IMG/VR virus record: IMGVR_UViG_3300023109_000074
Coordinates: 1 to 32,483 of that record
Source: a virus
DNA length: 32,483 nt
Reading direction: 5' to 3' (one strand)
In this document: piece after piece, positions 1,434 through 27,007 of the stretch
Position numbering within the stretch: position 1 is the stretch's first letter
Layout of the letters: the number at the start of each line of letters is the position of its first letter
Program-made: the position numbers and the translations under genes
Notes under the pieces: model-generated
Database searches by the model: none
The model's input: only the letters and a program-made list of their open reading frames with translations
What the model was told of the DNA's origin: nothing

Positions 1434-1998
1434 TATAAATTGCTGCCTTTGATATGACATAAGCGTCAGACATATCATAACAACAATCATCATTTTTTAC
1501 AAGTCCTTTATTTGGTCCTGATTTTAAAGTCCTTAAAGGCCAATCAAATTTAAAATTATTTTTTTCAAAATCATTCTTAACCCAGCTGAAAATTTGCTCT
1601 TTTGTGTTAATATCAAGCTTTTTGTTTAACTTTATTCCTAGATTCTTTCTTGCACTATTAACATTTATATATTCAGGAACAACAGAATAAACCTCAGCAG
1701 CAATATATGAAACTATTCCGTTAAACCTATTCAATTGTGATAAAGTCTTAGCAGATGAAAAACCTTTACTAAATGACTGGAATGATTCTTCTATTGAAAG
1801 AACTATGTCTTCTTCAAAAGAATAATTTTCAAAAAAAATTGTAAATTCATCTCTAATCTTCTTAGATTTATTAAAGATACATGATAACTTTTTAAGATTC
1901 ACGCTTCTTAAATCAACAAGATTTCCTAATCTATCTAAAAACGCTATACCAACTATAGATGTTGATATATCTAAACCAATATATTTTACTTTGTTCAT
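1414..1998 (-). CDS. RuvC-like Holliday junction resolvase
   Basis: This 194-residue protein looks like a RuvC/RNase H-fold nuclease. The visible acidic set is D10 in YIGLDIS, E70/E71 in LSIEES, and D175 and D178 in DMSDAYVIS. An NSARKNLGI segment near 115-122 resembles the substrate-contact helix of RuvC-type resolvases. It would cut branched DNA, resolving Holliday junctions and replication or packaging intermediates. T4 itself uses the unrelated endonuclease VII (gp49) for this, so here RuvC may be the replacement. The start codon overlaps the stop of the 1004-residue structural gene by one base (TAATG), and the end overlaps the primase gene. The resolvase therefore links the structural run to the replication genes. 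A non-resolvase nuclease or YqgF-like protein is possible but less likely. Confidence 0.8.
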   Translation of the reverse strand: MNKVKYIGLDISTSIVGIAFLDRLGNLVDLRSVNLKKLSCIFNKSKKIRDEFTIFFENYSFEEDIVLSIEESFQSFSKGFSSAKTLSQLNRFNGIVSYIAAEVYSVVPEYINVNSARKNLGIKLNKKLDINTKEQIFSWVKNDFEKNNFKFDWPLRTLKSGPNKGLVKNDDCCYDMSDAYVISKAAIYNENNIN

Positions 1999-4900
1999 TA
2001 AAAATCCATTTTAAGTCTAAATAACACATTATCAGAATCTTTTTTAGCATAAGGCTTAACAATTTTAGCTTTAGCTACTATATTAAGATTTGAATCATGT
2101 AGATTTATGTCTGTAATATATACAAAATCCTCATCAGAGTTAAATGCAGACTCATTTAGTCTTAGACTTTCAATTTGAGACGTATTATAAGACTTGTTAG
2201 TTCTTCCTGCATAAGCAGGCAAATTTAATTCATAAACATTTAATTTTGAAGAAGATTTAAAATCTAATTTTAAACTAAACTCTCCAAAGTTTTCTAGAGA
2301 AGGATGTAATATAGTTACAATTCCTTCATTATATAAACAATGACCGACATAACTCCATTCTGCATGTTTTGTAAGCGAGTCAGCTCTATATAAAGTTCCT
2401 TTACCATTATCTTTTAATTTAATCTTTTTATTTCCAAAAGTACCAGATAAACCTGAATCATACAATTCTACTGACTCTTTTTCTAATCTTCTTCCAAATA
2501 TCTGTGTTGATATACAAAAAGCTTTTGAATGAGTTTCAGACATATCATCATATAAGTTATATAAAGGATATTCTTGTTTAAAATATGGAATAAAATTAGC
2601 ATTATCATCAATATTGTCTAACTCTTTTTTAACAACATAAGGTAAATAACTAGCATTACTATTTACAAAAGAGTCATTAATTTTCCTAGATACTGGATTT
2701 GACAAATCTTTTAAGAAATAGCCTGTTCCAACTTCAACAAATTTATTATTATCATTGATATCACTTTTGATTTTTAAAAATTTTGTTTGATCATCATCTA
2801 AAAGTGTGAAATCTTCTCTAAAAAAATTGTTCAATGAAATATTTTTTAGTCCATCATAACTTATTTTAAATGACACATCACCAGAAATTTTATAATCTTC
2901 TCTTTGTTCAAGAGGCATAAGGCTTTTAAGACTATATGAATAATCATAAAGATCAGAGTCAGCTATATAAGTTATAAGATTATTTGATTTTAAAATAGAA
3001 TCTTCTTTGATAACTTTATTTAAACTAACATGTCCTATATCAAAATAATTGTTATCGTCATAGTGAGATTCTTCAACAGAATTATTATAATAATTTTTAT
3101 ATTTTTGTGTTTGAAGACCATTATCACATGGCATTATAAAATTATTTTTATAAGTAAAGTATTTTTTAAAATATAAGTCAAAATCACCACTGTCTTCTAA
3201 AGACAATTCATGAAGTTTTTGATGATATAGTTTATTAATACTTTCTCCTTTTTTAATATTATCAACTAAATTACTTTGACTATCTCCTAAAATATTACCA
3301 CTAGGTATATAACTTAATACATTAAACAAATTATAATTAACTTGATCTGATGTATATTCACCATTAAATACAACATTTGGACATGATTTTTGTTTAAACT
3401 CAAATAAGAATTTTTCAACTATTACTTCATGACCTAAACATTTGTTTGAAAAATAATTATTAATCGGACCTGAAAAGACATTGTTTTGCAAATTAATATT
3501 TGAAATAGAACCACTAGAAGTGTTATCACTTATTCCATTTAGATTAACGATTGATTTCTTTTTTATATCTTTATTAAAGTACAAAACAGGCAAGGAAAAT
3601 ATTAATCTATTATCACTAAAATCAGAAATACTATTTTCACATATAAGACTCTTAATATCCTTTATACTACTGTTGTAAATTCTTACATCACAAATTTCAG
3701 CACTTAAAGCTATACTAGTAGTATCTAAAACATAATTTTGAGCATCCAAATCAACTAAAGAATTGTTTATTTCAACATCAATAATAGTAGTACCGGTTTC
3801 AAAAAAATCATCTTCAATATTTTCTCCAAAGTTTATATTTTTAAGTGCATACGGACCAATATAATCTCCGTCAGAAGAATAATTCACTGAAAATAATCTT
3901 TTAAATATTTCAACTTCATCAGACACAGCTTTAAAAGAATTTCCAATACAAATAAAACTATTACTAGTGTTTGCTTTTCTAAAATCAGAAATTGCAGCAT
4001 TTACGCTGTCAACTTGATTTCCATCAATATGAATCTTTAAGTTTAAAGCATTATCCTTTATATCTTCTAAAGAAACACAAACATTATGCCAATGATTATA
4101 ATCAATAATATTATCACTACTTAAAACTATATTTGTATCTTTTTCAACATCATTTGATGATATATTACTATTTAAAAAATTTACTGATGCACCGCTTAGT
4201 ATATGTTCGTCGCCTAATGTTACAAACAATCTAAACTTATCTGTATAACCAGATTGATCTGTGCTTGAACCTTTAACTAAATACAAACCAATTATTCCTG
4301 GGATAAAAAAGACACAGCCAGGATTAAAACTGTAGCCTTCTATGTTTTTGTTGTTTTGATTTACATAGAAAGATAGGGTTAAATTATCATCGTCATTTTT
4401 GAAAAACTCATAAACACTTTTTACATCATGAAAAGCGTTAGGATAAACAACTACATTTTTGTGTGTTTTATCTGTGTTTTTTAAGTTATTTATATTAAAA
4501 AAATTTAAGCAATTATAATTTGAAAATCCCCAGTGCGGATTTAAAACTTTATATTTCATATTTTCTCTATAGAATTTATAAAGATTTTTTATTGTCTTTT
4601 TCTTGTAAAAATTTTCATCGTCTACAACAAACTTTTGCTTAACCTTTTCAACACCAAACTTAAATTCTCCAGAATTATCAAGTGAAAATCCAGCTTCTGA
4701 AAGTTTGACATCATGAGGACTATCTTGTTGTAACCTTATAGCATTAAGTTTTTCTAGGACTGTTTCACCTGAGTCTTTATCAAAATTTGAATTAATGTAA
4801 CTATTGAATTTTTCAAACTCATTAGAACCTAAAGAATAAGACTTTTTAGGATTATTAATCTTAGAACTTAATTGACCGTAAACTCCTGATTCTTCAATTT

Positions 4901-5012
4901 CTAAAGATTCTAAATCACTACATTCAATTGAAGCTGAAACATATGTTTTTTGAGGCTGTAATTCGATTGTGTTTTTTACAATCATTTTAGGATCAATTAA
5001 ATTTAAAGTCAT
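1998..5012 (-). CDS. LamG-like large tail/baseplate structural protein, 1004 aa
   Basis: I see no enzyme motif. Roughly residues 205-460 look like a concanavalin A/LamG jelly roll: a strand NLTLSFYVNQ, then NHWHNVCVSLEDI followed by LNLKIHIDG, the usual LamG order of 'cost of entry' strand, 'W-H-x-V' and 'L-x-x-Y/H-x-D-G'. The remainder is Asn/Ser/Asp-rich and acidic, with no signal peptide or membrane segment. LamG folds in phage virions usually bind glycans or mediate contacts between subunits, so this could be a peripheral baseplate or receptor-contact protein. It follows the 407-residue gene by 9 bases, with an AAGGGTAGG ribosome site, and its stop overlaps the resolvase start. That it is a virion protein is inferred from position, size and the fold. 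The ends of the domain are approximate. Confidence 0.65.
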   Translation of the reverse strand: MTLNLIDPKMIVKNTIELQPQKTYVSASIECSDLESLEIEESGVYGQLSSKINNPKKSYSLGSNEFEKFNSYINSNFDKDSGETVLEKLNAIRLQQDSPHDVKLSEAGFSLDNSGEFKFGVEKVKQKFVVDDENFYKKKTIKNLYKFYRENMKYKVLNPHWGFSNYNCLNFFNINNLKNTDKTHKNVVVYPNAFHDVKSVYEFFKNDDDNLTLSFYVNQNNKNIEGYSFNPGCVFFIPGIIGLYLVKGSSTDQSGYTDKFRLFVTLGDEHILSGASVNFLNSNISSNDVEKDTNIVLSSDNIIDYNHWHNVCVSLEDIKDNALNLKIHIDGNQVDSVNAAISDFRKANTSNSFICIGNSFKAVSDEVEIFKRLFSVNYSSDGDYIGPYALKNINFGENIEDDFFETGTTIIDVEINNSLVDLDAQNYVLDTTSIALSAEICDVRIYNSSIKDIKSLICENSISDFSDNRLIFSLPVLYFNKDIKKKSIVNLNGISDNTSSGSISNINLQNNVFSGPINNYFSNKCLGHEVIVEKFLFEFKQKSCPNVVFNGEYTSDQVNYNLFNVLSYIPSGNILGDSQSNLVDNIKKGESINKLYHQKLHELSLEDSGDFDLYFKKYFTYKNNFIMPCDNGLQTQKYKNYYNNSVEESHYDDNNYFDIGHVSLNKVIKEDSILKSNNLITYIADSDLYDYSYSLKSLMPLEQREDYKISGDVSFKISYDGLKNISLNNFFREDFTLLDDDQTKFLKIKSDINDNNKFVEVGTGYFLKDLSNPVSRKINDSFVNSNASYLPYVVKKELDNIDDNANFIPYFKQEYPLYNLYDDMSETHSKAFCISTQIFGRRLEKESVELYDSGLSGTFGNKKIKLKDNGKGTLYRADSLTKHAEWSYVGHCLYNEGIVTILHPSLENFGEFSLKLDFKSSSKLNVYELNLPAYAGRTNKSYNTSQIESLRLNESAFNSDEDFVYITDINLHDSNLNIVAKAKIVKPYAKKDSDNVLFRLKMDF

Positions 5013-5021
5013 AACCTACCC

Positions 5022-6245
5022 TTAATAATCTAGTCTAACGCTAATCGACAAATCAACTTCTGGGTTTTTCTCAATAGGTCTTGAAGTTTTAGCAACTGCT
5101 AATAATTCGTCATCTTTTGCTCCAAATAGACCAATAGTTGTAACGTATGTAAAAGGATCATCTCCTTTTTCTTGTATACATCTTATATTACCATCTTCAT
5201 CAATATAAGTTGGGTTAGTTGAAAAGTTTGCGTCATTTGGTCCAACTCTACAAAAATGAATTGTTGAATTAATGCTAGTCTGATTAATAAACCCAATAGC
5301 TGATTTGTTATCTCTTCCGAATCTTGTATCTGAAATGTGGTCTATAATATTATCAATTGATCCGCTTATCCAGAAATTAGGAATAAAGTCATTATCAAAA
5401 TCAACTTCATTATTATCACTATTAACAGAAGAAATTGGCCCAACAATATGATCTGTAGACGTAAAAACCTGTTCTGCGTCTAAAACAATAATTCCTTTAT
5501 TGTAAAATATTAATCCAACTTTTGTATCACTACCATCAGTAACGATAGAACCTATATGACCTGATATCGGTGATACATTTAAATTTGATGTAGAACCTAC
5601 ATCAGAATAAAGTTTAAAATCATTACTATCTGATGAAATAGATCCACTAATGTTATTAGTAACACTAGCAGCCTCATCAAGCGATTTGTGTATTTTAATT
5701 GAAAATTGTTCTTTATCTAATCCATCTCTTACAAATAGCCTTTTAAAGTTTACAAAAAGAGCATAATCAATTCTATCATCTAAACTAGACGACTCATATG
5801 GAACATGAAAAGCAGAGTCTGAATCGCCTAGTAAATAGTGTGCATATTGTTTGTATATGTTTGATTTTTCTCTCATCATAAGTGTAGTGTTATCAAACAC
5901 TTTTTTTCCGCTTGCATCCGGAGTAACAATAATTCCATTAATAGTTTCTGTTCCGTCGCTGTTTTTCTGTGAAAAAGACCCAATTGTTAAATCTAGCATT
6001 TCGTTAGAAGTTTGATATGTATGATTTTGATCAAATACTGTTTGATACAAAGACGAAGTTACTGAGCCTGACAGCTCTAAACCACCTGTTACGAAAACTT
6101 CATATTTTTTTCTTGTGTACGTTGGTGTTACGTCACTGTTTTCTTCATATTTACTTGCAATGTCTACCTGAAGTATATCAACTAACTGTCTAATATTAGA
6201 CTTCTTGTAAACCTTATCAGTGCTATTTATATTATAATATGTCAT
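5022..6245 (-). CDS. Virion structural protein, probable baseplate component, 407 aa
   Basis: The protein has no motif that names a function. Its N-terminal quarter, with KKSNIRQLVDILQVDIAS and then VFVTGG...SLYQTVFDQ and TSNEMLDLTIG, has a pattern I associate from memory with structural proteins encoded in the baseplate region of large marine myoviruses. The middle section has IYKQYAHYLLGD and RIDYALFVNFKRLFVRDGL. The C-terminal half is rich in Ser/Asp turns and ends in DLSISVRLDY. There is no signal peptide or membrane segment. A ribosome site (ATAGGAT) precedes the ATG, and gaps of 10 and 9 bases separate it from the neighbouring genes, so it is produced with the 248- and 1004-residue proteins. 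A peripheral wedge or tail-fibre attachment role is a guess from context. Confidence 0.6.
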   Translation of the reverse strand: MTYYNINSTDKVYKKSNIRQLVDILQVDIASKYEENSDVTPTYTRKKYEVFVTGGLELSGSVTSSLYQTVFDQNHTYQTSNEMLDLTIGSFSQKNSDGTETINGIIVTPDASGKKVFDNTTLMMREKSNIYKQYAHYLLGDSDSAFHVPYESSSLDDRIDYALFVNFKRLFVRDGLDKEQFSIKIHKSLDEAASVTNNISGSISSDSNDFKLYSDVGSTSNLNVSPISGHIGSIVTDGSDTKVGLIFYNKGIIVLDAEQVFTSTDHIVGPISSVNSDNNEVDFDNDFIPNFWISGSIDNIIDHISDTRFGRDNKSAIGFINQTSINSTIHFCRVGPNDANFSTNPTYIDEDGNIRCIQEKGDDPFTYVTTIGLFGAKDDELLAVAKTSRPIEKNPEVDLSISVRLDY

Positions 6246-6255
6246 TTAATTTATC

Positions 6256-7002
6256 CTATTCAATTGAATTACTAGTTATAGTAACTGGAAATATCAATGA
6301 AGACTTAGAATTATTTCCTATAATTTCTATTTGTGTCTTTATTTCTGAAGAGTTTGAAGAAGTTGCATAATATTTATAAGAGTCATTAGTAGTTTTACCT
6401 ATTGCAGTAACAATTATTTGACCAAATCTTTGATTGTCAAATTCAGCTTCTGAATTTAATTCTTGTGCAGGAATAACATAATAAGCAATATCATCTCTAA
6501 CGTCGTCAGGTTCTAGTTCATTTATTTTTATAATTTTATTAAACATTTTTACAATGAATTCTGAGTCTACCAACCCAGACTCTGTAATTACAAGGTCTTG
6601 ATCTTGATTTAAAAATGTTTTAAAGCTAATTTTTGCATTTTTTCCTAAATTAGACGAGCTATTAGAAGTTATTCTTATTGATGAGTCTTGAAAACTTCTT
6701 AGTTTTAGAAAAGGAAACGCATAAATACTATTAGTATTATTTGCAATAAATGATCTGATAGGATATTTTAATGCAAGGTCTTCATCAGTAACAGCTTCGA
6801 AAACTGGCGTATTCTTCTCTATTTTTTCTTTTCCAATAATAAGACCATATTTTTTCAAAATAGAGTAGTCAACTTCATCATCACCTAGTCTAAACCTAGA
6901 TATACTAAATGAATTGTCATTATTAGACAATAACTCTCTTCCTTTTTCTGTTAAAACAGCATCAATTATGACATTGTTTGTTGAATGATTTAGAAATCCC
7001 AT
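6256..7002 (-). CDS. Baseplate-region structural protein with IDxxLTxxGR N-terminal motif, 248 aa
   Basis: The first 45 residues, MGFLNHSTNNVIIDAVLTEK followed by GRELLS and RFRLGDDEVDY, form a motif that recurs in virion proteins of large phages. The 335-residue protein encoded at 16538-17545 carries the same motif, so the two are paralogous at least at the N terminus. The rest is a beta-rich, Ser/Asn-rich body with no known catalytic residues. The gene is first after the longest gap in the window. It has a good ribosome site (AGGAG, about 10 bases before ATG) and a possible late promoter directly upstream, so it may start a new transcript. The shared N terminus suggests that both paralogues dock on the same type of baseplate or tail surface. 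That docking role is inference. Confidence 0.65.
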   Translation of the reverse strand: MGFLNHSTNNVIIDAVLTEKGRELLSNNDNSFSISRFRLGDDEVDYSILKKYGLIIGKEKIEKNTPVFEAVTDEDLALKYPIRSFIANNTNSIYAFPFLKLRSFQDSSIRITSNSSSNLGKNAKISFKTFLNQDQDLVITESGLVDSEFIVKMFNKIIKINELEPDDVRDDIAYYVIPAQELNSEAEFDNQRFGQIIVTAIGKTTNDSYKYYATSSNSSEIKTQIEIIGNNSKSSLIFPVTITSNSIE

Positions 7003-7074: not shown

Positions 7075-8706
7075 TTATTGTTTTTCAAAGTTTTTTATTT
7101 TGAAATCTTTTTCGTACTTTTTTAAGTCGTTAACTCTAAATATAGTAAACTTGTAATCTTCATCATTTTTTAATATACTAATTTCGCTATTACCTAGTTT
7201 GACAAAACCGTGATCAGGTGTTACGTATAATTTTATGTTTTTTATGTTCTTTAAAATAGGCAAGTTATCAATCATGTTGTCGTTATATTTAAAAAACTTA
7301 CTATTTTGCATAATTTTTTCGTTAGGCTTGTTTCTCGGTGCGCCTGAGTCTGCAACTAAGTCATGTATTATTTTGTCTTCAAAAGGATCATATAAAATAG
7401 CAATTTGCTCTGAATAGCTTGAAAACATTCCATGCGCATCAATAGTCCTTATAGAATAAATTGTTATCTTTCCTCTTTTATAATCATTATCTAAATAATT
7501 ATATTTTACTTCACCCGGTGTCTTAACAATCATTTCTTCAGGTATTATTTCGCTTGGCTGATATAGATCATTCTCATCATGACCTTCTAATTGTGCAATA
7601 ATTGTAAATGGTTCATCTAAGCTATATCTTCTAAGTATTTGATACCCTTTGGCATCATACTGATAATCAGTTGGTTCGTCCCAACTAACTTTAAGGGAAT
7701 CTTTATTTAGTTTAAATCTTATATTATTAGGAGGCGGAGGAGCTTCGTTTTCAAAACATTCTATTTCTTTTGTGATATAAGGATGGTCACACAACAAGTA
7801 TGTATTTAAAATTAAAGTATCACTTGGATCATTTTGCATATAAAGGAAAACATTAGAAACAACATATCTATAAGTTTCACCATATCTTACAGCTTCGTCT
7901 TCATAAGAAGAGTTTAAATAAAGTTCCTCTGAGTCTGAATTTTTTGTTATAAACTTGCCACATAAAAATTTATATTTTTCATCTTCATCAAGAATATATT
8001 TTTCTAAAAGTAATCCACATCTTATTGCGTTATACTTAGAAAAATCAATGTTTACATTATTTGTTTCATTAACTTTCCTAGATAAAACATTTAAATTTGA
8101 AAATATAGAACCGTCTGAAGATGATTCACTAATTAAATCATCGTTTTCTTTTGATATGTTTGAATAAATAATATCATTATAGACTTTGTTGTGTTCGAAA
8201 AGTCCTGTTTCTGGGAAAAAAGAATTAATTGTTATTTTGTTTGTATTTATCCCAAAGTCTTCTGGGTTTAAATAAGATATTCTCTGTGTATATTTAATAT
8301 CGTTAGAGCTTGTAGTAAATTTGTCTTTATTATAAAATTCAATATTATCTGACTTTTCTTTTTCATCCAAATCAATAGATAAAAATTTTCTTTTCGTAAT
8401 CATTTGATCGATTTTGTTAAAAATTTTTATACTGATTTTGTCTATACTATTTAATAATGATAAATTAAAAACTTCTGGTAAAAAATTATCTCTATTGTAA
8501 TTAAATCTATCAATTTCATTGTGATTATTTAAAGTTAATCTAATAAATCTTTTTTTATATCTAGATGATTCTGTGATCTTTATAATACTATCATCTATAA
8601 CTGTTTCATTTTTCTCGTAATAGTTATAAATAAAATTTGATTCAACTTTTAAATCTTTATTTCTTCTTCCATTTAATGAAAAAATGTGATCAATAACTTT
8701 ATTCAT
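7075..8706 (-). CDS. Fibronectin type III-containing structural protein, 543 aa
   Basis: Residues about 323-440 form a fibronectin type III domain: a proline-rich entry (APPPPNNI), LKVSWDEP with W342, YQILRR, then IYSIRTIDAHGMFSSYSE. A second, less clear FN3-like unit may precede it near 225-320, around RYGETYRYVVSNVFLY. The N-terminal third is unrecognised and the C-terminal 100 residues start with a DSGAPRNKPN segment. FN3 domains in phage tails are usually structural or adhesive. The gene is translationally coupled to the 1714-residue gene (ATGA overlap) and also has a GAGG ribosome site 5 bases before its ATG. It is the last gene before the 72-base gap. A baseplate or tail-fibre connector role is inferred from domain and position. 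Confidence 0.68.
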   Translation of the reverse strand: MNKVIDHIFSLNGRRNKDLKVESNFIYNYYEKNETVIDDSIIKITESSRYKKRFIRLTLNNHNEIDRFNYNRDNFLPEVFNLSLLNSIDKISIKIFNKIDQMITKRKFLSIDLDEKEKSDNIEFYNKDKFTTSSNDIKYTQRISYLNPEDFGINTNKITINSFFPETGLFEHNKVYNDIIYSNISKENDDLISESSSDGSIFSNLNVLSRKVNETNNVNIDFSKYNAIRCGLLLEKYILDEDEKYKFLCGKFITKNSDSEELYLNSSYEDEAVRYGETYRYVVSNVFLYMQNDPSDTLILNTYLLCDHPYITKEIECFENEAPPPPNNIRFKLNKDSLKVSWDEPTDYQYDAKGYQILRRYSLDEPFTIIAQLEGHDENDLYQPSEIIPEEMIVKTPGEVKYNYLDNDYKRGKITIYSIRTIDAHGMFSSYSEQIAILYDPFEDKIIHDLVADSGAPRNKPNEKIMQNSKFFKYNDNMIDNLPILKNIKNIKLYVTPDHGFVKLGNSEISILKNDEDYKFTIFRVNDLKKYEKDFKIKNFEKQ

Positions 8707-13847: not shown

Positions 13848-13859
13848 TATTTTCCTACT

Positions 13860-16538: not shown

Positions 16539-17545
16539 TATTCAACAACCAATGTAAACATATTAATAAAGCTATAGTCATTATTTAAATTAAAATAATA
16601 TCTTTTATTTTCTTCATTTATTTCTTCTTTTAAGTTTCTTGTTAAAAATATTTTCCCTATTAAATAAATGTTCTTGAAATTATACTCTTTTGAATCGTAA
16701 AATTCACCTAAATGAACAAAAGAAAGTTTTGACAAGTTTTTAACGTCGCCAGATGATATTACATTATGCATTTCAAAAAGATAAACATCTTCATCTAACA
16801 TTTTTTCTTCATTGAAAATATATTCTAATTTATGAATATTTCTGCTAACAGATATTTTATTAATAACATCTATGACAAAGTCTTCTTTGTTTGTAAATTG
16901 AGGTATTTCATCATCAATATTCAAACTTTTAAAAATAATTTCAAGTGGCTTGTCCAAGAAAATATCTTCGTCTAGAAAAAGACTTCTTCCACTAGAAACG
17001 GTAGGAGGCATGACTTTATTTCTTGTTTTGTCAATAAATCGCTTGTCGTTTTTTACATATTCAACATTGCTTAATAAAGTTTTATATGACTTAATTGTAG
17101 GATAAGCTGAAGGTTTGTTTTGAAAATTAAATTCATCTTTTTCATCTTTATAGTCAAAACTAATTTCTCTGTCATCTTCTTCTGATTTTAAAACTTTATT
17201 ATCTAGCAACTTTAACGCAATTAAATAATCAGATGTTGTCCTGTTTGATTCTTTATTTACAAACAATATATTGTTATCAAGCTGATCAAAGGATATAACA
17301 GAAGACAACGTATACTCAGGATTAATTAAGTTATTAACATTTGTATCGACTTCGAAAGGTAAAAATGAAGTTATATCAGACACCTTGAAACTTTTCAAAG
17401 TCTCATAGTCTTCATTATAAACAATACTACTGTCCGAAAAGGTGTAATATTTCAAGTCGAGTGTGCCTAAAGACAACTTGTCTCTACCGAACTCTGTTAA
17501 TTTATAGTCAATAAGTCTTTTATCTTTTTCTAGAAAACCTGCCAT
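16538..17545 (-). CDS. Paralogue with IDxxLTxxGR N-terminal motif, 335 aa
   Basis: The opening MAGFLEKDKRLIDYKLTEFG, continuing RDKLSLG and YYTFSDSSIVYN, matches the N terminus of the 248-residue protein at 6256-7002 position by position: MxxFL, ID, LTE, GR, LS, then an F/D segment and a closing Y. Beyond residue 50 the two proteins diverge. This one has a central acidic stretch and a C-terminal strand-rich part ending NDYSFINMFTLVVE. An AAAGGAA ribosome site lies before ATG and a 25-base gap separates it from the 1039-residue gene. Its stop overlaps the start of the 892-residue gene. The shared N terminus suggests a common docking module used twice in the baseplate. Function beyond that is unknown. 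Confidence 0.65.
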   Translation of the reverse strand: MAGFLEKDKRLIDYKLTEFGRDKLSLGTLDLKYYTFSDSSIVYNEDYETLKSFKVSDITSFLPFEVDTNVNNLINPEYTLSSVISFDQLDNNILFVNKESNRTTSDYLIALKLLDNKVLKSEEDDREISFDYKDEKDEFNFQNKPSAYPTIKSYKTLLSNVEYVKNDKRFIDKTRNKVMPPTVSSGRSLFLDEDIFLDKPLEIIFKSLNIDDEIPQFTNKEDFVIDVINKISVSRNIHKLEYIFNEEKMLDEDVYLFEMHNVISSGDVKNLSKLSFVHLGEFYDSKEYNFKNIYLIGKIFLTRNLKEEINEENKRYYFNLNNDYSFINMFTLVVE

Positions 17546-17570
17546 TTAACTATATTCCTTTATTAATATG

Positions 17571-20500
17571 TTAAGTATCTGAAAATATTATTTCACTTGA
17601 ATTATAATAAGCATTTTTATTCGTATTGTAACTTTTAATTAATTCACCCTCTTCTATAGAGAAATCTTCAAATGAAACACAAGAATTAAATTCATCACCT
17701 TCAATTTTAGCTGTAGGGTTTCCAAATGTTCCTAATTTATCTAAAGTAATTTTTATCTCAACTAAGTTTGTATGTAAACTTTCTTCAACAACTTCAGCTG
17801 TAACATTTAACTTAAAGTCTATAACATTATTTGAATCATCTATTTCTTGCTGACTCTTGTTATTTATTTCATTAATACTTGAAGCAACTAAATCTACAAA
17901 AGCTCTTTTTTGTATTTCTAAGTCTAAAGGGTATGTTTCATTTGATTTTATAAAAGCATTATAAATGACTGGATCAACTTCTGTTAGTATAACTTTGTTA
18001 TTTTCTATTACACTAAACAAATCAGAAACAGAATACCTTGGAGGATTTAGTTGATTTGCTCCATTTGCAATACCTAACGTTGAATCTGTTAATAAATAAA
18101 CACTTACAGAATTTTGATCATTATCAGTAATTTTAAATGATAGAGAAGACTTTCCTGCTGTTTTCCCTGTAGTTGAAGACATAATTTTTTCTTTTAGATA
18201 ATTTGTACCTTTAAATTCATTAATTTTATTAAAATTAAAAATCAATTTTCCTGATATCTTTGCTGGTTTTTTCTGTTTAAAATATCCAGACATAAATCTT
18301 TTATTAATATTAAAATATTTACTGTTGTCAAATTGATGAATTAAAGAGTAATATAGCTTATCAATAGGCATCCCAAAATGATATTTATTAAAATAGTGTT
18401 TAATTGAATATTTTTCATCATTTTGAGTAAAATAATCGTTTGTTGGTAAAGAAGAAGTATATTCACTATGAGGATAATTAACACCTGCTACAAAATCATC
18501 AATATCAGGTTTACCAAAACTAGGTAGTTCAAAAAAATTACCTAACTTTATTTTATTTTGGCTAGAATACTTGTTTTTATTTATAAGAAAACCTGATCTT
18601 CCTATTATTTCTCTATCATAAAAATTGTTATCTAAATAGCCTAGATTACTTCCAACTTGGTCTACCAATTCTTTTTGAAAATAACCTATTTTTTTTGTAT
18701 TTTTGTATTGTTTGCTTTCTTTATTTAAAATTATTTTTTTATTCTTATCTTCTTGATAATGCCCTATTAAGTGTATTTTAAAGGGGTAATCATTACTAGA
18801 ACTAATTTTAACTAAGTCTTCACCTATTCTTATATTATTATTTTCTGGATAGTCTTCTTGACATTCAAAAGAATTACTTAAAGAAATACCTAGAACTAGA
18901 TTATCACTTGGTAATAATATATAACTACTTTCTTCATACATTTTTTCATTTAATATAACATTTTTATTGTTTACATCTAAAATGATTTCTTTGTTTGAAG
19001 TATTATTTAAATTTTCTGCAATTATTGATCTTCCTGACTTTGAAGACAAATTTGTTCTATCACTTGAAGGCTTTCCAGGATATAAATCAAAACTAGTAAA
19101 TTTTGGAAGGTTTTTGTTTTCATAGAAATGTTTGACTGGAGCAACAATTTTAATCGATTCATTAGTATAAATACATTCTGAATCATTTGAAGAATCCAAC
19201 AAAGGAGATTGTGATTTATTTATCAATAAATCAACAGAATTTTCTATCTTTTCTAAATTAATCATATGATTATCTGGATTAGATTTACCTGAAGCATAGT
19301 TTGCAATAGAAACAGAAGTTATAATATCTCTTTGTTGAGTTCCATAATATTTTTTGTCAATGTTTTGTATATTATTTGTTTGTATAAAATCGCTATTATA
19401 AACAGAATCTCCAAGAACTGTCCCATGTAATTCCATATCATCAATCTGTGATTGAGTAAAGTTTGAGTTTTGGTCTTTATTGTTAGAAGTAAATACAGTA
19501 TCACCTTCGTAATTAATAGGGTCAATATTAATAAACATACTATTTCCTCCATAATAAGTCTTTAATGAATTGTCTAGATTAGAAGTATTTAATATTCCTC
19601 TTTGATTAATTAAAAATAAATTTACAAAGTTTAAACAAGGATCTTCTCCTTGTTGATCATTTAAAGAAACAGACCAATTTGACATTGTAAATTCTAAACA
19701 AACTTTTTCAATCACAAAAGGTTTCGAAATGTAGTCTGAAGCTTTTATTATATGTCTATCCTTTGCAGCATATTTTGAATCAAATGGAAACCCAAAATTA
19801 CTAATAGGTATTGACCCGTAAGAAGATTTAATAATACTATCTGAAAGTGCTGGGTTTGAAGTTATATCTTCGCGAATTTTTCCAGTAGATGCGCTACTAA
19901 AACATATTGGCGAATTCGCAACAAAAGAGCCAACATCATGTTTATAATCACTTGAAATGTTACCTAGATAATCATATGGGCCAAAATTATTTTTTATATA
20001 CTCTGGATTATATAGATAAACAGTATTACCATTAAAAGTATGATAAGAAGTCCCATCAGGAAATGTAACTTCTCTAGTATTACCTTTTTTACTAAAAGAC
20101 AGATAAATATCGCTATTGTTTGATTTTTTTAAATCATAATCGATTGTAATTATATTATTTATTTCTGTTTTTTCTAAAACATCATTGTCTTCTTTAAAAA
20201 TACAAGACATATCTTCAAGATAATTTTCTTTAAGCATTCTATCATAAACATGCGGATTTTGTGTAAAAGTCTGTTGTTCAAATCCAGAAACACCAACTTG
20301 TGAATTATTACTATTAATTATTTCATAAAAAGGATATGTGTTAGGAGTATTGACTATTTTAGACTTGTTATAAAAGCCAATTTCAGTCAATATATTATTA
20401 CTAATATATTTTGACTCTATACCCGCTGTTGGTATTATATTTTTTTCTAAAAAGTTAATAGTTCTGCTATCATGGAAAAAATATTCTCTTTTATCTAATT

Positions 20501-20690
20501 TAATGTCTGTGTGGATTAATTCATTATCAAAAAAACTAAAGCTCAACTCTGAGTCTTCTCTTTGTTTGTTGAAAGATTGAGTTACTATTCCTGATTTTAT
20601 TGTATGATGATCATCACTATGATTAACAGACAGACTTGATCCACCAAATTTATTATATCCAATTGAATTAAATTTTGTTCTATATTTCAT
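17571..20690 (-). CDS. Uncharacterised large structural protein, 1039 aa
   Basis: I do not recognise a family name. The protein is soluble-looking, rich in Asn, Ser, Asp and Tyr, with no membrane segment. A block near residues 245-355 is the most ordered-looking part. It runs from FGPYDYLGNI through SSYGSIPISNFGFPFDSKY to SKPFVIEKVCLEFTMSNWSV, and I associate the 'P-F-x-x-E-K' strand with exterior structural proteins of large phages. The C-terminal 250 residues carry a strand pair KISGKLIFNFN and SLSFKITDNDQNSVSVYLL that may be a separate beta-sandwich. The start overlaps the stop of the 307-residue gene by one base, with GGAAGA upstream, so the two products may form a complex. Virion role is inferred from context. 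Confidence 0.58.
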   Translation of the reverse strand: MKYRTKFNSIGYNKFGGSSLSVNHSDDHHTIKSGIVTQSFNKQREDSELSFSFFDNELIHTDIKLDKREYFFHDSRTINFLEKNIIPTAGIESKYISNNILTEIGFYNKSKIVNTPNTYPFYEIINSNNSQVGVSGFEQQTFTQNPHVYDRMLKENYLEDMSCIFKEDNDVLEKTEINNIITIDYDLKKSNNSDIYLSFSKKGNTREVTFPDGTSYHTFNGNTVYLYNPEYIKNNFGPYDYLGNISSDYKHDVGSFVANSPICFSSASTGKIREDITSNPALSDSIIKSSYGSIPISNFGFPFDSKYAAKDRHIIKASDYISKPFVIEKVCLEFTMSNWSVSLNDQQGEDPCLNFVNLFLINQRGILNTSNLDNSLKTYYGGNSMFINIDPINYEGDTVFTSNNKDQNSNFTQSQIDDMELHGTVLGDSVYNSDFIQTNNIQNIDKKYYGTQQRDIITSVSIANYASGKSNPDNHMINLEKIENSVDLLINKSQSPLLDSSNDSECIYTNESIKIVAPVKHFYENKNLPKFTSFDLYPGKPSSDRTNLSSKSGRSIIAENLNNTSNKEIILDVNNKNVILNEKMYEESSYILLPSDNLVLGISLSNSFECQEDYPENNNIRIGEDLVKISSSNDYPFKIHLIGHYQEDKNKKIILNKESKQYKNTKKIGYFQKELVDQVGSNLGYLDNNFYDREIIGRSGFLINKNKYSSQNKIKLGNFFELPSFGKPDIDDFVAGVNYPHSEYTSSLPTNDYFTQNDEKYSIKHYFNKYHFGMPIDKLYYSLIHQFDNSKYFNINKRFMSGYFKQKKPAKISGKLIFNFNKINEFKGTNYLKEKIMSSTTGKTAGKSSLSFKITDNDQNSVSVYLLTDSTLGIANGANQLNPPRYSVSDLFSVIENNKVILTEVDPVIYNAFIKSNETYPLDLEIQKRAFVDLVASSINEINNKSQQEIDDSNNVIDFKLNVTAEVVEESLHTNLVEIKITLDKLGTFGNPTAKIEGDEFNSCVSFEDFSIEEGELIKSYNTNKNAYYNSSEIIFSDT

Positions 20691-21613
20691 TAATCTATTC
20701 TTCCATAAAATGCTAAAGAGTCTATACCGTTCGATAAAGAATAATCACAATCTATTCCTCTAGAATAATACAAAGTAGATTCTTCCATAGCCTTGTTTTT
20801 GTCTCTCATTGACAATATTTTATTATTTATAGATTCACTCGTAAACTTATATCTGTTTTGCTTAGAGTCAATCTGATGATTATTTGCGTTTTCTGATCTG
20901 TCAAAGAAAGGATTGGTTTTTTGTTCTTTGTATGCAAAATATCTTACTTCACTCGATATTATATTTTTCTTCTTTGTAACGACTGTATTTGTCGTTATTC
21001 CAGAAATAGGATTGACATTTTTTATTATTTTATCTATAACTATTTTATCTTTTTCTGAATGAATAAAACTAGAAATAATATCGTCTTCATAATGTGATAC
21101 TGTGTCATCTATCTTTTCTGTTTTGTTGACAATTCGCAGTATTTCGCCAAAAGAGTTTTTTGAATTGCCCAAAGAGTTACTTTTAAATCCTCTTAAATTA
21201 TCAATATACGATTGATTCATCTGGATTTTGCTAACGTTAGAAAAAACATCTAATCTATTAGTCAAAGCAAAAAAATTATCATAATTAAAAGAAAAAGGAT
21301 AGTCTACGATATCATCTAATGAATCAAAACCTGCATATTTTCTTGTAGATAGAATGCTTCTTTCAACAAAACCATTATCTTTTCTAAATGTATCTACTCC
21401 TAATTTTATCTTAGTAATAGTATTTTTAACCTTAACTAATTTTCTGTCTCCAAAGTCTAAAAAAGGGTTAAACTTTTGAGTCTCTTGAAACATCTCCTTA
21501 TACTTTTCTTCTGTTACATACTCACAATTAGTATCAATTAAAGATTTAGATCTTTTAAAATTAAATTTAAATTCTTTTCTGTTTTGTCTTTCTTCAAATC
21601 TAGAATCATTCAT
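20690..21613 (-). CDS. Uncharacterised baseplate-module protein, 307 aa
   Basis: No domain or motif is recognised. The protein begins basic and charged (SRFEERQNRKEFKFNFKRSK), has a middle part with KQNPFLDFGD-like and YPFSFNYDNFFALTNRLD segments, and ends with ESTLYYSRGIDCDYSLSNGI. It lies 12 bases after the double-LamG gene and is coupled to the 1039-residue gene by a TAATG overlap. The ribosome site AGAAAG is weak, which fits coupled translation from the upstream gene. It could be an adaptor between the LamG protein and the 1039-residue protein, but this is speculation from gene order. It is not a shadow frame: it fills the only open frame between its neighbours. Confidence 0.55.
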   Translation of the reverse strand: MNDSRFEERQNRKEFKFNFKRSKSLIDTNCEYVTEEKYKEMFQETQKFNPFLDFGDRKLVKVKNTITKIKLGVDTFRKDNGFVERSILSTRKYAGFDSLDDIVDYPFSFNYDNFFALTNRLDVFSNVSKIQMNQSYIDNLRGFKSNSLGNSKNSFGEILRIVNKTEKIDDTVSHYEDDIISSFIHSEKDKIVIDKIIKNVNPISGITTNTVVTKKKNIISSEVRYFAYKEQKTNPFFDRSENANNHQIDSKQNRYKFTSESINNKILSMRDKNKAMEESTLYYSRGIDCDYSLSNGIDSLAFYGRID

Positions 21614-21625
21614 TTATAAATCTTT

Positions 21626-24600
21626 CTATGTTTTTTTAATTATAGCATTTTCTAAAAATCCTGTAGCATCATCATATCTAAATTTTTTATTTTGACTTCT
21701 ATAATTTTGATAATTATACAAATCTGAGTTTGAAACTGGGATACGACTATCTGAGTTTTTATATTGGTACTTGTTTCTTTCTAAGATATGCGACTCATAT
21801 ACGAAATTAAATCCTAAATAGTTAACTCTAGATGGTATTGCTTCATATAATAAGTCTTCTAGAATATTATCAAAATATTTATATACCTGATATAACATAT
21901 TAAAATTGATTTCTTCTCTCGGTTTTATTCTCTTAAAGTAATCGTCTCTTAATTTAGAAAAATCTAAATAGTCTTGTTCATAAAGATAACTAGATATTGA
22001 CAACTTGTCAGTAAAATAATCATTGATCGATATAAGTTTTGATATATCTTGATTTAAGAAATGAACAGCAGAAAAATCAATATATAACCTTTGATCGTCA
22101 TGATATAAATACTCTGGATGATGTTGTGAAGAAAAACTTAAATTGTAATTTTTATATTGATCTTTGATTGAGTCACTTTCAAAAGAATTTATATAAATCT
22201 TATTAGAATTACTAGGTGAATCTATTTCATAGTTTTGTTTAAAAAGTATTAAATCATCAGCAGAAAATATATTTTCACTATTAATGTTGTTATCTGTAAG
22301 AAGCGCACTGCCTACATAAAGATAAGATTTTAAGTCTGTTCCACTTTCAACTTTTGATAAATCACTAATATAATTAAATAGTTTATTTGAAGCTTGATAT
22401 TCTTGATTAATATTTTCACTTAAATCGATATTTATGTAAAGATTATCAACAGACATATTATCTGTTTTTTCTCCAATAAATTGTATATCCTTAGACTTGT
22501 TTCTTAATATATCATTATGTAAGTACTTATCATATAATCTAATTTGGCTTATCTTACCTTGAAAAGAAGTTTCATAAGATAAACCATTAATCTCACTACT
22601 ACTTACTGTATCACTGTATTTATAGTCTCCACATGAAATTTGATAAACATTTGTTAAACCACCAGCATCTTCATAATTTAAAGATGTTTTTATTTTAATA
22701 TTTTTATTATATGAGTAAGACAATTGACCTATCGGAGATACATCAAGTTGATATTCATAAATGTCTTTTGAATCAATATACTTTTTTCTTAAACAAATAT
22801 AATATGTATATCCATTTAATAGATTAATATTTTCTATTGTTTCTTTTAGAACTGTATTGTTATTTAAATTTTGAATATTCAAATAAAGATCTAAATCTCC
22901 AAAGTCTACTTCTTTGTTTTTTCTATTAAACACAACATTAATATAAGGACTATTATATTGACCAGAAGTAATAGTCCTGTTTATTCTAAAAAGTGATTGG
23001 TTATTATTAAACATTTTAACTTTTGACTTGTCAAAGTTAAAATAAAATTCAAAAGTCCAATTTTTTTCAAAACTGTTTGTTAGACTATTAAACTTCGATT
23101 TTCTAAATCTTTCAGACCTATAATTTATTTTATTTAATGCATTACCTATATCGTCATAAGTTGTAGTATCAAATTTTTTACTGTGACGATTAAAATCAAT
23201 AAATTTTATTTTTTGTCTATTTGAACAAAATTGATTGTTTATATTTAATCTATTTTGCCCATTTAACTCTTTTATCTTTATAAACTTACTAGACTCTAAA
23301 CCGAAAGAATTAAAAACAGAATTTATGCTTCTTACAGTTCCTTTTGACGCAAGATAATCTTTTGAATTTAGTAAAAACCTTTTCCAAAGAATGTTTTGTA
23401 TTTGTCTTATACTTAATGTTGACATAACTTCTTCATAAGACAAATTTTTATTATCAAGTTTTTCTTTTAAAGGAAATGCATATAACTCTCTAAATTTAAA
23501 ACCCATTTGATTTAATGCTAATGGTAAGATTACACCATCAATTTTTTTATTTTTATTGATTTTATCATAATCAAAACTCAACAATTCCGTAAAGTTGTCA
23601 ATATACATTTTTATTTGATCAAAAAATCTTGCCCAAATAGAGATGAGCTTAATCAGCTCTTGATTTATAGATCTTTCAGTACCAATTATATTAGATTGAC
23701 TTTTTACTTTATCACTAATATATGTTGCGTTAATATTATCATAATCAGAGCCTTCTAGAAAAATATTTTTAGGAAAAAGTTTCCAGAAAGAGTTTGGATT
23801 AACTAAGTCATATTCTTTAGCAAGAGCTAACAATGTAACTTTTTGGTCGTGCGAATGTACTGAAAATAGTATTGGGTTTAAATTATCTTTTTCATATTTT
23901 AATGGAATTTCAATATTAGATACAATTCCATTTCTTTCATAATTATCGATAATAGAAAATATATTATTTATGTCATCATTAGAGACAACAGACTTTAATT
24001 CACCATGTAATTTGTTTCCAGAGTAATCCAAAACAATATGATTATTAGAGTATATACCAGATGGTTCATTTAGTCTTAAATAAAGTTTTAAATTTTCTTG
24101 CGAATGCATATTTTCATCTTTAAATTTCAATATGTCTTTAGTGTCTCTATCTTTTCCAGAGAAAAACCTAAACTCATCAATTAGACCAACAAATCCTCCA
24201 GAAAAACTAACGTTAACTTCGTTGTTAAGGTTATGCGTTAATTTAGAAGAATTACCTATATATACTTTTGCGTTTTTAAATTCCTGACTAGAAAAATTTA
24301 AATTTAAAATATTTATATCACCAATTATAGTAACTTCTGAAGAAGATTTATTTATTTCTTTGCCATTAACATATAAATAAAAACTATTTTCAGTTAAACC
24401 ACTTCTTACTTCGAAACAGATATGTTGGAATTCTTCTAATTTTATTTTAAAAGTAACTTCAAAATAATTTTGATTACTCGATATTATAAATGATATATCA
24501 CATGTATTATTAGCTGAATTATGTCTTTTTGCTTTTACAAAAAACCCTTCATTGTCGCCATATTTTTCAAAAATACATACACTTGGACTTATACCTCCGG

Positions 24601-25159
24601 CAAGAGAAATATTATTTGGATATATCCAGAAATCAAAAGAAAAAGATTTGCCATTAGGGTTGAAGTTATCTAGAAAAGTTTTGCCTTTGTAATCGTTTAA
24701 CAAACTTCCTTTTGAATCATTTATAACAATTGACTTACTACCGTCAAATTGCATATAATTTCTTGACTTATTTACTTTGTTGTCTAGAATGTATTTTGTA
24801 AATCCGTCAAGTTTCTTAAGATACTGACTTACTTGGAATCTTGACTTATCATATGGAAATTCATTTATTGATTTGTCAAAAGCAAAGTTAACTTTTTCTA
24901 CGGCAGAGTCAAAAAACACATGCTCAGCAAAGTTTTCATAATCAATACTTTCTATTTGCTGTGTGCTTATAAATCCATCATATCCATCGATTCTTTCAAA
25001 AAATTCTGTTTCATTATTAAGGTAAAGATCTAGAAAAGTTTTAAAATCAGAACTTTCTAGTAGACTTTTCGAAGTAATAAAATTGCTATGAGACTTTCTC
25101 TTATTAGTGTTTTGCAATGTATTTGCAATTTCTGGTTTAGAAGAAATTAAATTTGTCAT
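21626..25159 (-). CDS. Double LamG-like baseplate protein with WKRFL/SKGT core, 1177 aa
   Basis: Three parts are visible. Residues 100-135 carry FPYDKSRFQVSQYLKKLDGF and YILDN, leading into a first concanavalin A/LamG fold (about 135-385: SFSFDFWIYPNN, FQHICFEV, SFYLYVNGKEI, GGFVGLIDEFRFF, LYLRLNEPSG). A helical core follows at about 500-625, with LWKRFLLNSKDYLASKGTVR and SINSVFNSFGL, a pattern I associate from memory with large baseplate proteins of big myoviruses. A second LamG-like fold is at about 680-890 (WTFEFYFNF, YEYQLDVSPIG, FQGKISQIRLYDKYL). The likely role is a peripheral wedge component that organises or carries host-contact parts. It overlaps the DNRLRE-type gene by one base (TAATG) and comes two genes after gp6. 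No enzyme residues are seen. T4 gp7 equivalence is possible from gene order but not shown by sequence. Confidence 0.7.
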   Translation of the reverse strand: MTNLISSKPEIANTLQNTNKRKSHSNFITSKSLLESSDFKTFLDLYLNNETEFFERIDGYDGFISTQQIESIDYENFAEHVFFDSAVEKVNFAFDKSINEFPYDKSRFQVSQYLKKLDGFTKYILDNKVNKSRNYMQFDGSKSIVINDSKGSLLNDYKGKTFLDNFNPNGKSFSFDFWIYPNNISLAGGISPSVCIFEKYGDNEGFFVKAKRHNSANNTCDISFIISSNQNYFEVTFKIKLEEFQHICFEVRSGLTENSFYLYVNGKEINKSSSEVTIIGDINILNLNFSSQEFKNAKVYIGNSSKLTHNLNNEVNVSFSGGFVGLIDEFRFFSGKDRDTKDILKFKDENMHSQENLKLYLRLNEPSGIYSNNHIVLDYSGNKLHGELKSVVSNDDINNIFSIIDNYERNGIVSNIEIPLKYEKDNLNPILFSVHSHDQKVTLLALAKEYDLVNPNSFWKLFPKNIFLEGSDYDNINATYISDKVKSQSNIIGTERSINQELIKLISIWARFFDQIKMYIDNFTELLSFDYDKINKNKKIDGVILPLALNQMGFKFRELYAFPLKEKLDNKNLSYEEVMSTLSIRQIQNILWKRFLLNSKDYLASKGTVRSINSVFNSFGLESSKFIKIKELNGQNRLNINNQFCSNRQKIKFIDFNRHSKKFDTTTYDDIGNALNKINYRSERFRKSKFNSLTNSFEKNWTFEFYFNFDKSKVKMFNNNQSLFRINRTITSGQYNSPYINVVFNRKNKEVDFGDLDLYLNIQNLNNNTVLKETIENINLLNGYTYYICLRKKYIDSKDIYEYQLDVSPIGQLSYSYNKNIKIKTSLNYEDAGGLTNVYQISCGDYKYSDTVSSSEINGLSYETSFQGKISQIRLYDKYLHNDILRNKSKDIQFIGEKTDNMSVDNLYINIDLSENINQEYQASNKLFNYISDLSKVESGTDLKSYLYVGSALLTDNNINSENIFSADDLILFKQNYEIDSPSNSNKIYINSFESDSIKDQYKNYNLSFSSQHHPEYLYHDDQRLYIDFSAVHFLNQDISKLISINDYFTDKLSISSYLYEQDYLDFSKLRDDYFKRIKPREEINFNMLYQVYKYFDNILEDLLYEAIPSRVNYLGFNFVYESHILERNKYQYKNSDSRIPVSNSDLYNYQNYRSQNKKFRYDDATGFLENAIIKKT

Positions 25160-27003
25160 TATATAAACCTTAGAATTGTATTGTCATTTGATGCTTTTTT
25201 ATAAAGACCAGTTAACGGATCTGTGTATTTGAATATAAAATTGACTCTTTTATTTTTAAAATTATCTGAAGCAAATATGTTTAGTATATAATGTTTGCCA
25301 TTGAATTTAAGCATTGTATACAAGTCTTCGTCACTGATTATCTTTTCGCCTGTGTCAACATCATACATTTCGTAAGTTACTTTTCCTAAGTTTTCGCTAT
25401 AAAGCTTTGTAGGGACATTGACTGCTTTGTATTGTTTATTTGTATCAATAAAACTCAACTTTATTGATACAAATGTGTTATCTGCCTTTAACTCGCTTTG
25501 CAAAATATCTAAAGAAACTCTAATATTCCTATTATCAAAAGATATTTCACTTTGATCGACTTCTGAAAGATTGAAGTTTATATTTTCTTTTTTGATTGTA
25601 GAAGTTGTGCCTAAATTGTTGTCATAGTAATATTCTAGCTCAACTGGAATGTATCCGAGTTTGTTTAATTTAGCGTTGAAAATAGAATCAGATTGAATTT
25701 GGCTTATTACTGAACTAGTTAGAGAAAACTTTTTTATTCCTAAGACTTCCTCACCTTTATAATTGTATATAGACTGTCCTGTTATTGATTGAGTTTCTGC
25801 AAAAATGTTTTCATTATCATCACCTATAAATGAAAATCTAAGACTTACATCGAATCCAACCGTAAAACTTTTAAGTGAATTACCTTTAGCATTCATAAGA
25901 TAAAAGTCTTCCTCATTGTCAAAGTACCTCTTTTTATCTGTTATAACACTTTCAATTTCATTATCGTCTATTTTTATTATTAGCTGTGGTATTAAGCTTT
26001 TATTTTTTAAATTTCTACTACCGAATCTTTTAACAAAATAAGTGTTTTCATCAAAAAGATTGTCTAAATCAAAATGAATTACAAAAGACTCTTTGTCAAA
26101 ATTAGGTGTGCCTTTAAAAAATTCATGGACATAGTCTGTAACGTTAAATGATAAATTTTCTTTTCCTGATTCTACGTCAAAACTCTCAAAAGTGCTATCT
26201 GTCCGAATAAAGAGATCATCGCCGGAAACTATTCCTTCATTTGTCCAAGATGTATTAGAGCTACTATTTAAAATTTTAAAATTTGCGTCATCTAGATCGG
26301 AGAAGTGTACAACATCTTTTCCTAATCCTTCTCTAAAATCATTTTCTAGAACGTTTAAATTCAAGGAAAAGTCTTTTGCTCTAGTAGAAGACTGTCCTAC
26401 ATCTATTAATCTTATCTCTGCACTAAACTTAGGATTTTCTATGTCTCTAAAGACTGAGTTTGCTATATTACCATCAGAAATGTGAGATTTTTTGATTTTT
26501 GAAATGTCAAACGTTATAAGTCCTGCTGAGTGCTCAAATCTAGTAAATCCTTTTGAAGAAAGATTTAGACCAGATGTAACAATCTGTGTATCACCAGATG
26601 ATCCAGGTTTATTCTGTTTAAACAGAATTTTATCATCGTATAATTTCATTGCCGTGATGCCAAAGTTAGCATCTGAGTTAATCTCAGTAATGACGTTAGA
26701 CAAGGTCTCGACTGTGTTAACACCAATGCTTATTAAAATATTGTTATTATCAACAGAAGCGTCATTATCAAATTCATACGTTTTACTAACGCCACTTGAA
26801 TCTATGACTGTAAATGTGTCTCCGTCTAATAATATTCCAGAAATATTTAGTATTCCTCTAGCAAAAGTTTTCTTGTTCTCACCAGCAATTTTAAATAAGT
26901 CTATTGACGAAGATTGACCAACGTTTGAGTTCAAACCATTATTGCTTACAGTTTGAATATCAGTTACATATGTATCTTTTTTAGGGTTTTCTATTATAAT
27001 CAT
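25159..27003 (-). CDS. DNRLRE-type structural protein with nested insertion, about 614 aa
   Basis: The N terminus (KKDTYVTDI, then NVGQSSSIDLFKI) and the later LITFDISKI, FSLNLNVLENDFREGLGKDV and DLDDANF segments follow the DNRLRE/beta-sandwich pattern of phage structural proteins. Between them, at about residues 56-155, an extra domain is inserted: DGDTFTVIDSSG, TYEFDND, LISIGVNTVETLSN, INSDANFGITA, LFKQNKPGSSGD. Such 'dGDT...YeFd...IN...ITA' units recur in marine phage proteins. The C-terminal 250 residues are further beta-rich parts. Start choice: ATG at 27003 lies 4 bases after the gp6 stop, and a GTG at 27015 in the same frame would add four residues and overlap gp6 by 8 bases. Neither has a strong ribosome site. 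Location between gp6 and the LamG protein implies a wedge-associated role. Confidence 0.68.
   Translation of the reverse strand: MIIIENPKKDTYVTDIQTVSNNGLNSNVGQSSSIDLFKIAGENKKTFARGILNISGILLDGDTFTVIDSSGVSKTYEFDNDASVDNNNILISIGVNTVETLSNVITEINSDANFGITAMKLYDDKILFKQNKPGSSGDTQIVTSGLNLSSKGFTRFEHSAGLITFDISKIKKSHISDGNIANSVFRDIENPKFSAEIRLIDVGQSSTRAKDFSLNLNVLENDFREGLGKDVVHFSDLDDANFKILNSSSNTSWTNEGIVSGDDLFIRTDSTFESFDVESGKENLSFNVTDYVHEFFKGTPNFDKESFVIHFDLDNLFDENTYFVKRFGSRNLKNKSLIPQLIIKIDDNEIESVITDKKRYFDNEEDFYLMNAKGNSLKSFTVGFDVSLRFSFIGDDNENIFAETQSITGQSIYNYKGEEVLGIKKFSLTSSVISQIQSDSIFNAKLNKLGYIPVELEYYYDNNLGTTSTIKKENINFNLSEVDQSEISFDNRNIRVSLDILQSELKADNTFVSIKLSFIDTNKQYKAVNVPTKLYSENLGKVTYEMYDVDTGEKIISDEDLYTMLKFNGKHYILNIFASDNFKNKRVNFIFKYTDPLTGLYKKASNDNTILRFI
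26611..26628. repeat. 18-bp perfect palindrome
   Basis: The sequence ATTCTGTTTAAACAGAAT is its own reverse complement. It lies inside the inserted domain of the DNRLRE-type gene, where it encodes part of LFKQNKPG. In such an AT-rich window one palindrome of this length is roughly what chance gives, so no function is claimed. Confidence 0.5.
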
Positions 27004-27007
27004 ATTG

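Follow-up and report, generated by a model that had tools for sequence, protein, structure and literature searches.

A run of eleven genes for large proteins beside gp25 and gp6 as a probable new version of the T4-type baseplate region

Layout of the gene run and its anchors

We analyzed a viral contig of 32,483 bp (IMG/VR record IMGVR_UViG_3300023109_000074; the whole stretch is called the window below), in which every large gene lies on the minus strand. In the order of transcription, the window encodes proteins of 252, 126, 629, 162 (gp25), 615 (gp6), 618, 1177, 307, 1039, 335, 892, 1714, 543, 248, 407, and 1004 aa. After gp6 comes a run of 11 collinear minus-strand genes from 1998 to 27015, with products of 248-1714 aa (8284 aa in total) and nearly back-to-back spacing of -8 to +72 bp. 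The initial annotation had counted ten collinear genes of 248 to 1714 residues here; place, collinearity, and sizes were right, and the number is eleven. The anchors and the run are listed in the order of transcription.

28861..29349, minus strand: gp25-like wedge protein of the baseplate, 162 aa, which anchors the module; PHROG 261 and 43 (baseplate wedge subunit), E 1e-6 and 2.1e-6; PF04965, E 5.8e-6, just below the cut-off
27008..28855, minus strand: gp6/Baseplate_J-like wedge protein, 615 aa; PHROG 6, E 4.9e-9
25159..27015, minus strand: DNRLRE/CBM96-type beta protein, 618 aa, directly after gp6; profile match of 79% (E 1.6e-5) to a family of distant phages
21626..25159, minus strand: probable gp7-position wedge protein, 1177 aa; Laminin_G_3 (Pfam), conserved core family, match to S-PM2p084, sub-cut-off PF09684 in homologues
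20690..21613, minus strand: 307 aa, first gene of the extra block; same position in long-form relatives
17571..20690, minus strand: 1039 aa, no recognized fold; position shared by homologues of 742-1045 aa; profile match of 99.1% (E 1.9e-18) to distant long-form phages
16538..17545, minus strand: 335 aa; profile match of 97.9% to distant long-form phages
13860..16538, minus strand: 892 aa, fast evolving (dN/dS 0.36); position conserved
8703..13847, minus strand: 1714 aa, the largest protein, fast evolving (dN/dS 0.35); near relatives have homologues of 1733-1966 aa in this position
7075..8706, minus strand: 543 aa, marginal FN3 (fn3, E 6.8e-4, below the cut-off), precedes the 248/407 pair in the long form; profile match of 99.6% to distant long-form phages
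6256..7002, minus strand: 248 aa, first gene of the pair, motif DAxLTxKGRELL...FxLxDDEVDY; relatives in at least 590 IMG/VR stretches; RM378p129, E 2.9e-9
5022..6245, minus strand: 407 aa, second gene of the pair, C-terminal 'TTVGLYDxxxELLAVAKLSxPxxK' domain; RM378p128, E 5.5e-42
1998..5012, minus strand: 1004 aa, terminal gene with LamG-like middle; profile match of 100% to distant long-form phages

The gp25-like and gp6-like genes had been called clear, and the PHROG baseplate-wedge families agree with this, the Pfam score staying just under the cut-off; gp6 also matches a Flavobacterium phage immuto gene annotated as baseplate wedge protein (E 3e-44). None of the 11 genes of the run reached a PHROG family of known function, so that the description as mostly unrecognized proteins was correct, and among the run and its anchors only gp6 and gp25 gave matches to known tail functions. 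Compared with one close relative, all 11 genes are under purifying selection (dN/dS 0.06-0.36) and are therefore real genes. The ratio was 0.06-0.16 in eight of them, 0.26 for the 1004-aa gene, 0.35 for the 1714-aa gene, and 0.36 for the 892-aa gene (463 codons compared).

At the head of the module lies the 252-aa gene (31688-32446, minus strand), for which PHROG and Pfam give no function and which is conserved in relatives including immuto (E 2.6e-26) and Microcystis phage Mel-JY01. At the other end, the 1004-aa gene is followed by RuvC-like and primase-like genes (PHROG 159 and 47) and then by what appears to be an SbcD-like N-terminus. These genes (positions 1-1998) directly after the run keep their order in most relatives and tie the tail to replication genes.

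Three domain assignments made at first sight fared differently. The FN3 call is marginal, as the 543-aa match lies below the Pfam cut-off. The DNRLRE-type call for the 618-aa protein came through a relative: the window protein itself has no Pfam match to CBM96, and the Mel-JY01 counterpart scored E 5.5e-5 at 23.5 bits, below the cut-off of 26. The 618-aa profile reached 99.6% against the family of the distant contigs G016, G018, and G019. As for the two LamG proteins, the 1177-aa assignment holds (Laminin_G_3, E 1.5e-9, 38.6 bits, above the cut-off of 27.6; ConA-like PDB matches of its model), and that of the 1004-aa protein was reached only via relatives (profile match of 57%; Laminin_G_3 at E 1.2e-8 in the same-position gene of L107).

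The 1177-aa protein at the gp7 position

The 1177-aa protein consists of a LamG domain (about 136-403), a helical core with a KGT motif (about 405-660), a second LamG-like domain (about 677-890), and a helical C-terminus. Aligned with distant homologues, it shares a core of about 255 residues in which K-G-T is invariant; the core family (A15) comprises 52 sequences with invariant R190 and K202-G203-T204 (segment numbering). The visible LamG domains are additions to this core. A profile of the 52 core sequences was searched against whole phage genomes. The genome of S-PM2 gave a single match, S-PM2p084 (E 4.7e-5), a protein of 3048 aa, virion structural by annotation, encoded immediately after gp25-gp6, and through it the 1177-aa core is homologous to a gp7-position virion protein, as annotated. 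RM378 also gave a single match, RM378p100 (1019 aa), to part of the core (E 6.9e-4), and T4, RB43, ZPAH1, P2, and Mu gave none. When the core profile was run on a set of 13 tail and control proteins, the top ranks went to the three gp7 proteins of T4 type, at non-significant scores, and the similarity of T4 gp7 itself to the 1177-aa core was likewise not significant. The Tail_P2_I family (PF09684) matched at the aligned place in two homologues (E 0.0024 and 0.024) and in one member of the wider family A12 (E 0.015); all of these matches are below the cut-off and none is in the 1177-aa window protein, and T4 is likewise missed by the PF09684 model. The S-PM2 counterpart follows gp6 directly; here, and likewise in related phages, the 618-aa gene intervenes.

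Structure prediction added little for the core. The full-length model (8 sequences) had a pLDDT of 47 and was usable only in the ConA-like domains, and the core model (52 sequences) reached a mean pLDDT of 56; at this low confidence, a fold search of the core model against PDB and BFVD gave no significant match. The gp7-like profile gave nothing in a sequence search of the PDB, and no relative of the 1177-aa window protein emerged from tblastn in annotated phages. The best PDB hits of the full-length model included clostridial toxin receptor-binding domains, which we set aside as sharing only the common jelly-roll, with no toxicity implied.

Based on the conserved core, the sub-cut-off PF09684 matches, and the sole S-PM2 match right after gp6, we call the 1177-aa product a gp7-position wedge protein that is probably homologous to gp7, any homology to T4 gp7 itself being tentative. 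Cyano- and pelagimyophages have been reported to lack T4 gp7, and VrlC has been proposed in its place (PMC7029224). If gp7 had been lost or replaced here in the same way, the KGT motif would be convergent, and the non-significant similarity to T4 gp7, the core model with no fold match, and the reported absence of gp7 in those phages would all fit. We consider this unlikely, as the S-PM2 match was obtained genome-wide and fell on the very gene after gp6, and PF09684 matched at the same place in separate homologues. Through S-PM2p084, assignment of the 1177-aa protein to the gp7 position also suggests an explanation, open to testing, for the reported lack of gp7 in cyano- and pelagimyophages.

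The initial annotation had recognized none of gp7 to gp12. For gp7 this has to be revised, since the 1177-aa core is detectable; for gp8 to gp12 it stands, as T4 profiles gave no match to the module proteins (gp9, gp11, and gp12 were compared with module proteins only). A one-to-one match of the run with gp7-gp12, which would have contradicted the initial annotation, did not occur. The gp8 profile found nothing in 11 records (the window, G001, G002, G014, G016, G018, G020, immuto, Mel-JY01, LR756508, and RM378); it does find the gp8 of S-PM2, which is part of the profile (E 9.5e-116). With the gp10 profile, the sole matches were to N-terminal fragments lying beyond the module, in G002 (C1:170345-170575, E 7.6e-6) and G020 (C1:125038-125343, E 4.1e-8). 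The G002 frame has 1152 aa and the G020 frame 512 aa, interrupted by a single stop; both are possible fibre genes. A tail sheath protein above the Pfam cut-off was present in G002, G014, G020, and three annotated relatives; G001, G016, and G018, possibly fragments, gave no sheath match, and the window itself is a 32-kb fragment. T4-type terminase, portal, protease, and capsid families occur in G001. Judging by these relatives, the phage probably has a contractile tail and head genes of the T4 type.

Long and short forms of the module

About ten other virus contigs show the eleven positions in unchanged order. Near relatives with this long form are G001 (211 kb), G002 (240 kb), G003, G008, G010, and G013, where for the last three the reading began inside the 618-aa gene; G009 keeps the order to the contig's end. 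The more distant G016, G018, G019, and G020 also keep it; G016 and G018 additionally contain a few small genes. Profile matches to G016, G018, and G019 were 97.9-100% for the 618, 1177, 1039, 335, 543, and 1004 families. A short form lacking the six middle genes is found in immuto, Mel-JY01, LR756508 (484-kb), and G014 (178-kb), in the order gp25, gp6, 618-type, a small gene, gp7-like (1265-1446 aa), 248-type, and 407-type; immuto and LR756508 have one other gene ahead of the 248-type gene. The short form (gp7-like, 248, and 407) is common, and the window carries the long form. Relatives of the 618, 1177, 248, and 407-aa genes and of the 1004-aa end domain exist in distant phages, three of them also in RM378. 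The run is thus not unique, and large structural proteins had already been reported (PMC7029224).

Two contigs or groups of contigs depart from these layouts. In G003 (L004/L030), otherwise 84-95% identical, the gp6, gp7-like, and 892-aa genes are each split into two frames, probably by assembly or sequencing errors in the metagenome contig. G021 and G022 (L092/L093) show a third arrangement, possibly an intermediate form, with a gp7-like gene of 1381 aa, genes of 740 and 361 aa, and after these a 242-aa protein that matches the 335 family as well as the 248 family.

The 248-aa and 407-aa genes form a near-obligate pair. Among the best-scoring 80 of the at least 590 loci, the 407 family lay directly downstream of the 248 family in 74; the preceding gene was gp7-like in 46, of the 543 type (long form) in 7, another in 26, and none in 1. 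These 80 loci were the best-scoring ones, so the proportions are no census. The first gene is carried by at least 590 IMG/VR stretches, and neither Pfam nor PHROG names the members scanned, which suggests that the pair is a widespread tail component of aquatic phages still lacking a name. In Mel-JY01, five consecutive genes match the 407 family, and in the window the 1004-aa C-terminus is paralogous to the C-terminal domain of the 407-aa family (90% profile match). The pair motif weakly resembles the P2 gpH attachment domain (profile match of 18.5%, E 0.0013); PF12571, the Pfam model of that domain, matched only in the Mel-JY01 relative, below the cut-off (E 0.030). Tandem duplication with one shared C-terminal domain, together with the weak gpH likeness, suggests that the pair and the 1004-aa C-terminus may serve as adaptor and receptor-binding end.

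The long form differs by an extra block of six genes (307-1039-335-892-1714-543; 4830 aa) between the gp7-like gene and the pair. The 1039-aa protein has no T4, P2, or S-PM2 match, and tblastn against annotated phages turned up nothing related to the 335-aa window protein or to a distant 1039-aa homologue. The 307, 892, and 1714 families gave no profile signal against G016, G018, and G019 and were equated with their distant counterparts by position alone. The N-terminal 44 aa of the 335-aa protein matched the 248-aa family (40%, E 3e-4) with a shared LTxxGRxxLS motif, and this N-terminus is apparently paralogous to the putative 248-aa adaptor. A recent insertion limited to the close clade of the window was dropped as an explanation, since G016, G018, and G019 carry the block.

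The six genes may encode an additional baseplate layer with new folds, limited to the long-form lineage, in which receptor-binding domains would be displayed in an alternative way, between the gp7-type protein and the putative adaptor pair; we put the chance of this at slightly less than even. They might otherwise be cargo or regulatory genes that were inserted as a cluster into the baseplate run and are not virion structure, as the absence of the block from short-form phages and its unrecognized folds could be taken to indicate. This appears very improbable to us given the near-zero spacing within the same gene run, the resemblance of the 335-aa N-terminus to that of the 248-aa protein, and the retention of the block by all long-form relatives. 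If the block is a peripheral layer, the long and short forms provide a natural comparison of baseplates with and without it.

Proposed organization and comparison with known systems

We consider it likely that the run is a wedge-periphery and host-contact module made up of the gp7-type 1177-aa protein, the 248/407 adaptor end, and the six-gene peripheral layer. The initial proposal of a different, larger baseplate periphery or host-contact apparatus fits the conserved position and order and the lectin-like domains, and no gp8 was found in the window or the relatives tested; gp7, however, is not missing, and the run is not unique. By homology, gp25 and gp6 form the inner wedge, followed by the 618-aa DNRLRE/CBM96-type protein. 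The helical core of the gp7-type protein would be joined to gp6, with its LamG domains grafted outside. The pair and the 1004-aa C-terminus would provide the adaptor and the receptor-binding end, and the block an extra peripheral layer placed, if it is in the virion, between the gp7-like protein and the pair. The lectin-like domains may bind surface glycans, and the wedge would relay binding to sheath contraction, as in T4. The module would be an enlarged wedge periphery with built-in carbohydrate-binding domains, and we predict that its proteins are present in the virion, the one link to virions so far being the annotation of S-PM2p084.

Could the run instead be mainly a tail-fibre cluster for host range, like the host recognition cluster of pelagimyophages, with each large protein an independent and swappable receptor-binding protein? 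The LamG and CBM96-type domains, the faster evolution of the 892 and 1714-aa proteins, the five consecutive 407-family genes of Mel-JY01, and the clusters and concanavalin-type structural proteins reported in PMC7029224 are in its favor. The pelagimyophage cluster, however, is non-syntenic (PMC7029224), whereas order and content here do not vary even among long-form phages with no more than about 30-70% identity. In addition, the gp10-N-terminus-like fragments of G002 and G020 lie outside the module, so that fibre-type genes may sit elsewhere. We regard a host-range cluster as an improbable explanation and retain the wedge-periphery and host-contact module.

The run had also been called large even for a myovirus. 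This does not hold: the genes that follow gp6 in S-PM2 encode proteins of 3048, 175, 634, 2747, 67, 1251, 168, and 3338 aa, among others, and take up over 36 kb in the same place compared with the 25-kb run. Large unidentified structural proteins have been reported for marine T4-like phages, and ones with concanavalin-type domains for cyano- and pelagimyophages (PMC7029224), and the size of the run is thus unexceptional among marine myoviruses. No virion proteome of RM378, immuto-type phages, Mel-JY01, or the long-form clade was found in the searchable literature.

The module shares gp25, gp6, and a large gp7-type subunit with the gp6-gp12 wedge of T4, but its proteins have no profile match to gp8-gp12, and gp8 was not found in the related genomes tested. 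In S-PM2, the gene right after gp25-gp6 encodes a very large protein that shares the KGT core, gp8 lies between it and the 2747-aa protein, and very large structural proteins are again numerous; S-PM2 differs in retaining gp8 and the 'virulence associated' S-PM2p087, and the other window proteins gave no significant match to its neighboring products. Rhodothermus phage RM378 has the pair (RM378p129/p128) and, in RM378p100, a match to part of the gp7-like core, but its genes are scattered, p100 lying about 27 kb from the pair. Mel-JY01 and immuto come closest in order, with gp25, gp6, 618-type, large gp7-like, 248-type, and 407-type genes in succession, and differ in having the short form and, in Mel-JY01, the repeated 407-family genes. 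We concluded that the run is a new version of the baseplate region known from T4-type phages.
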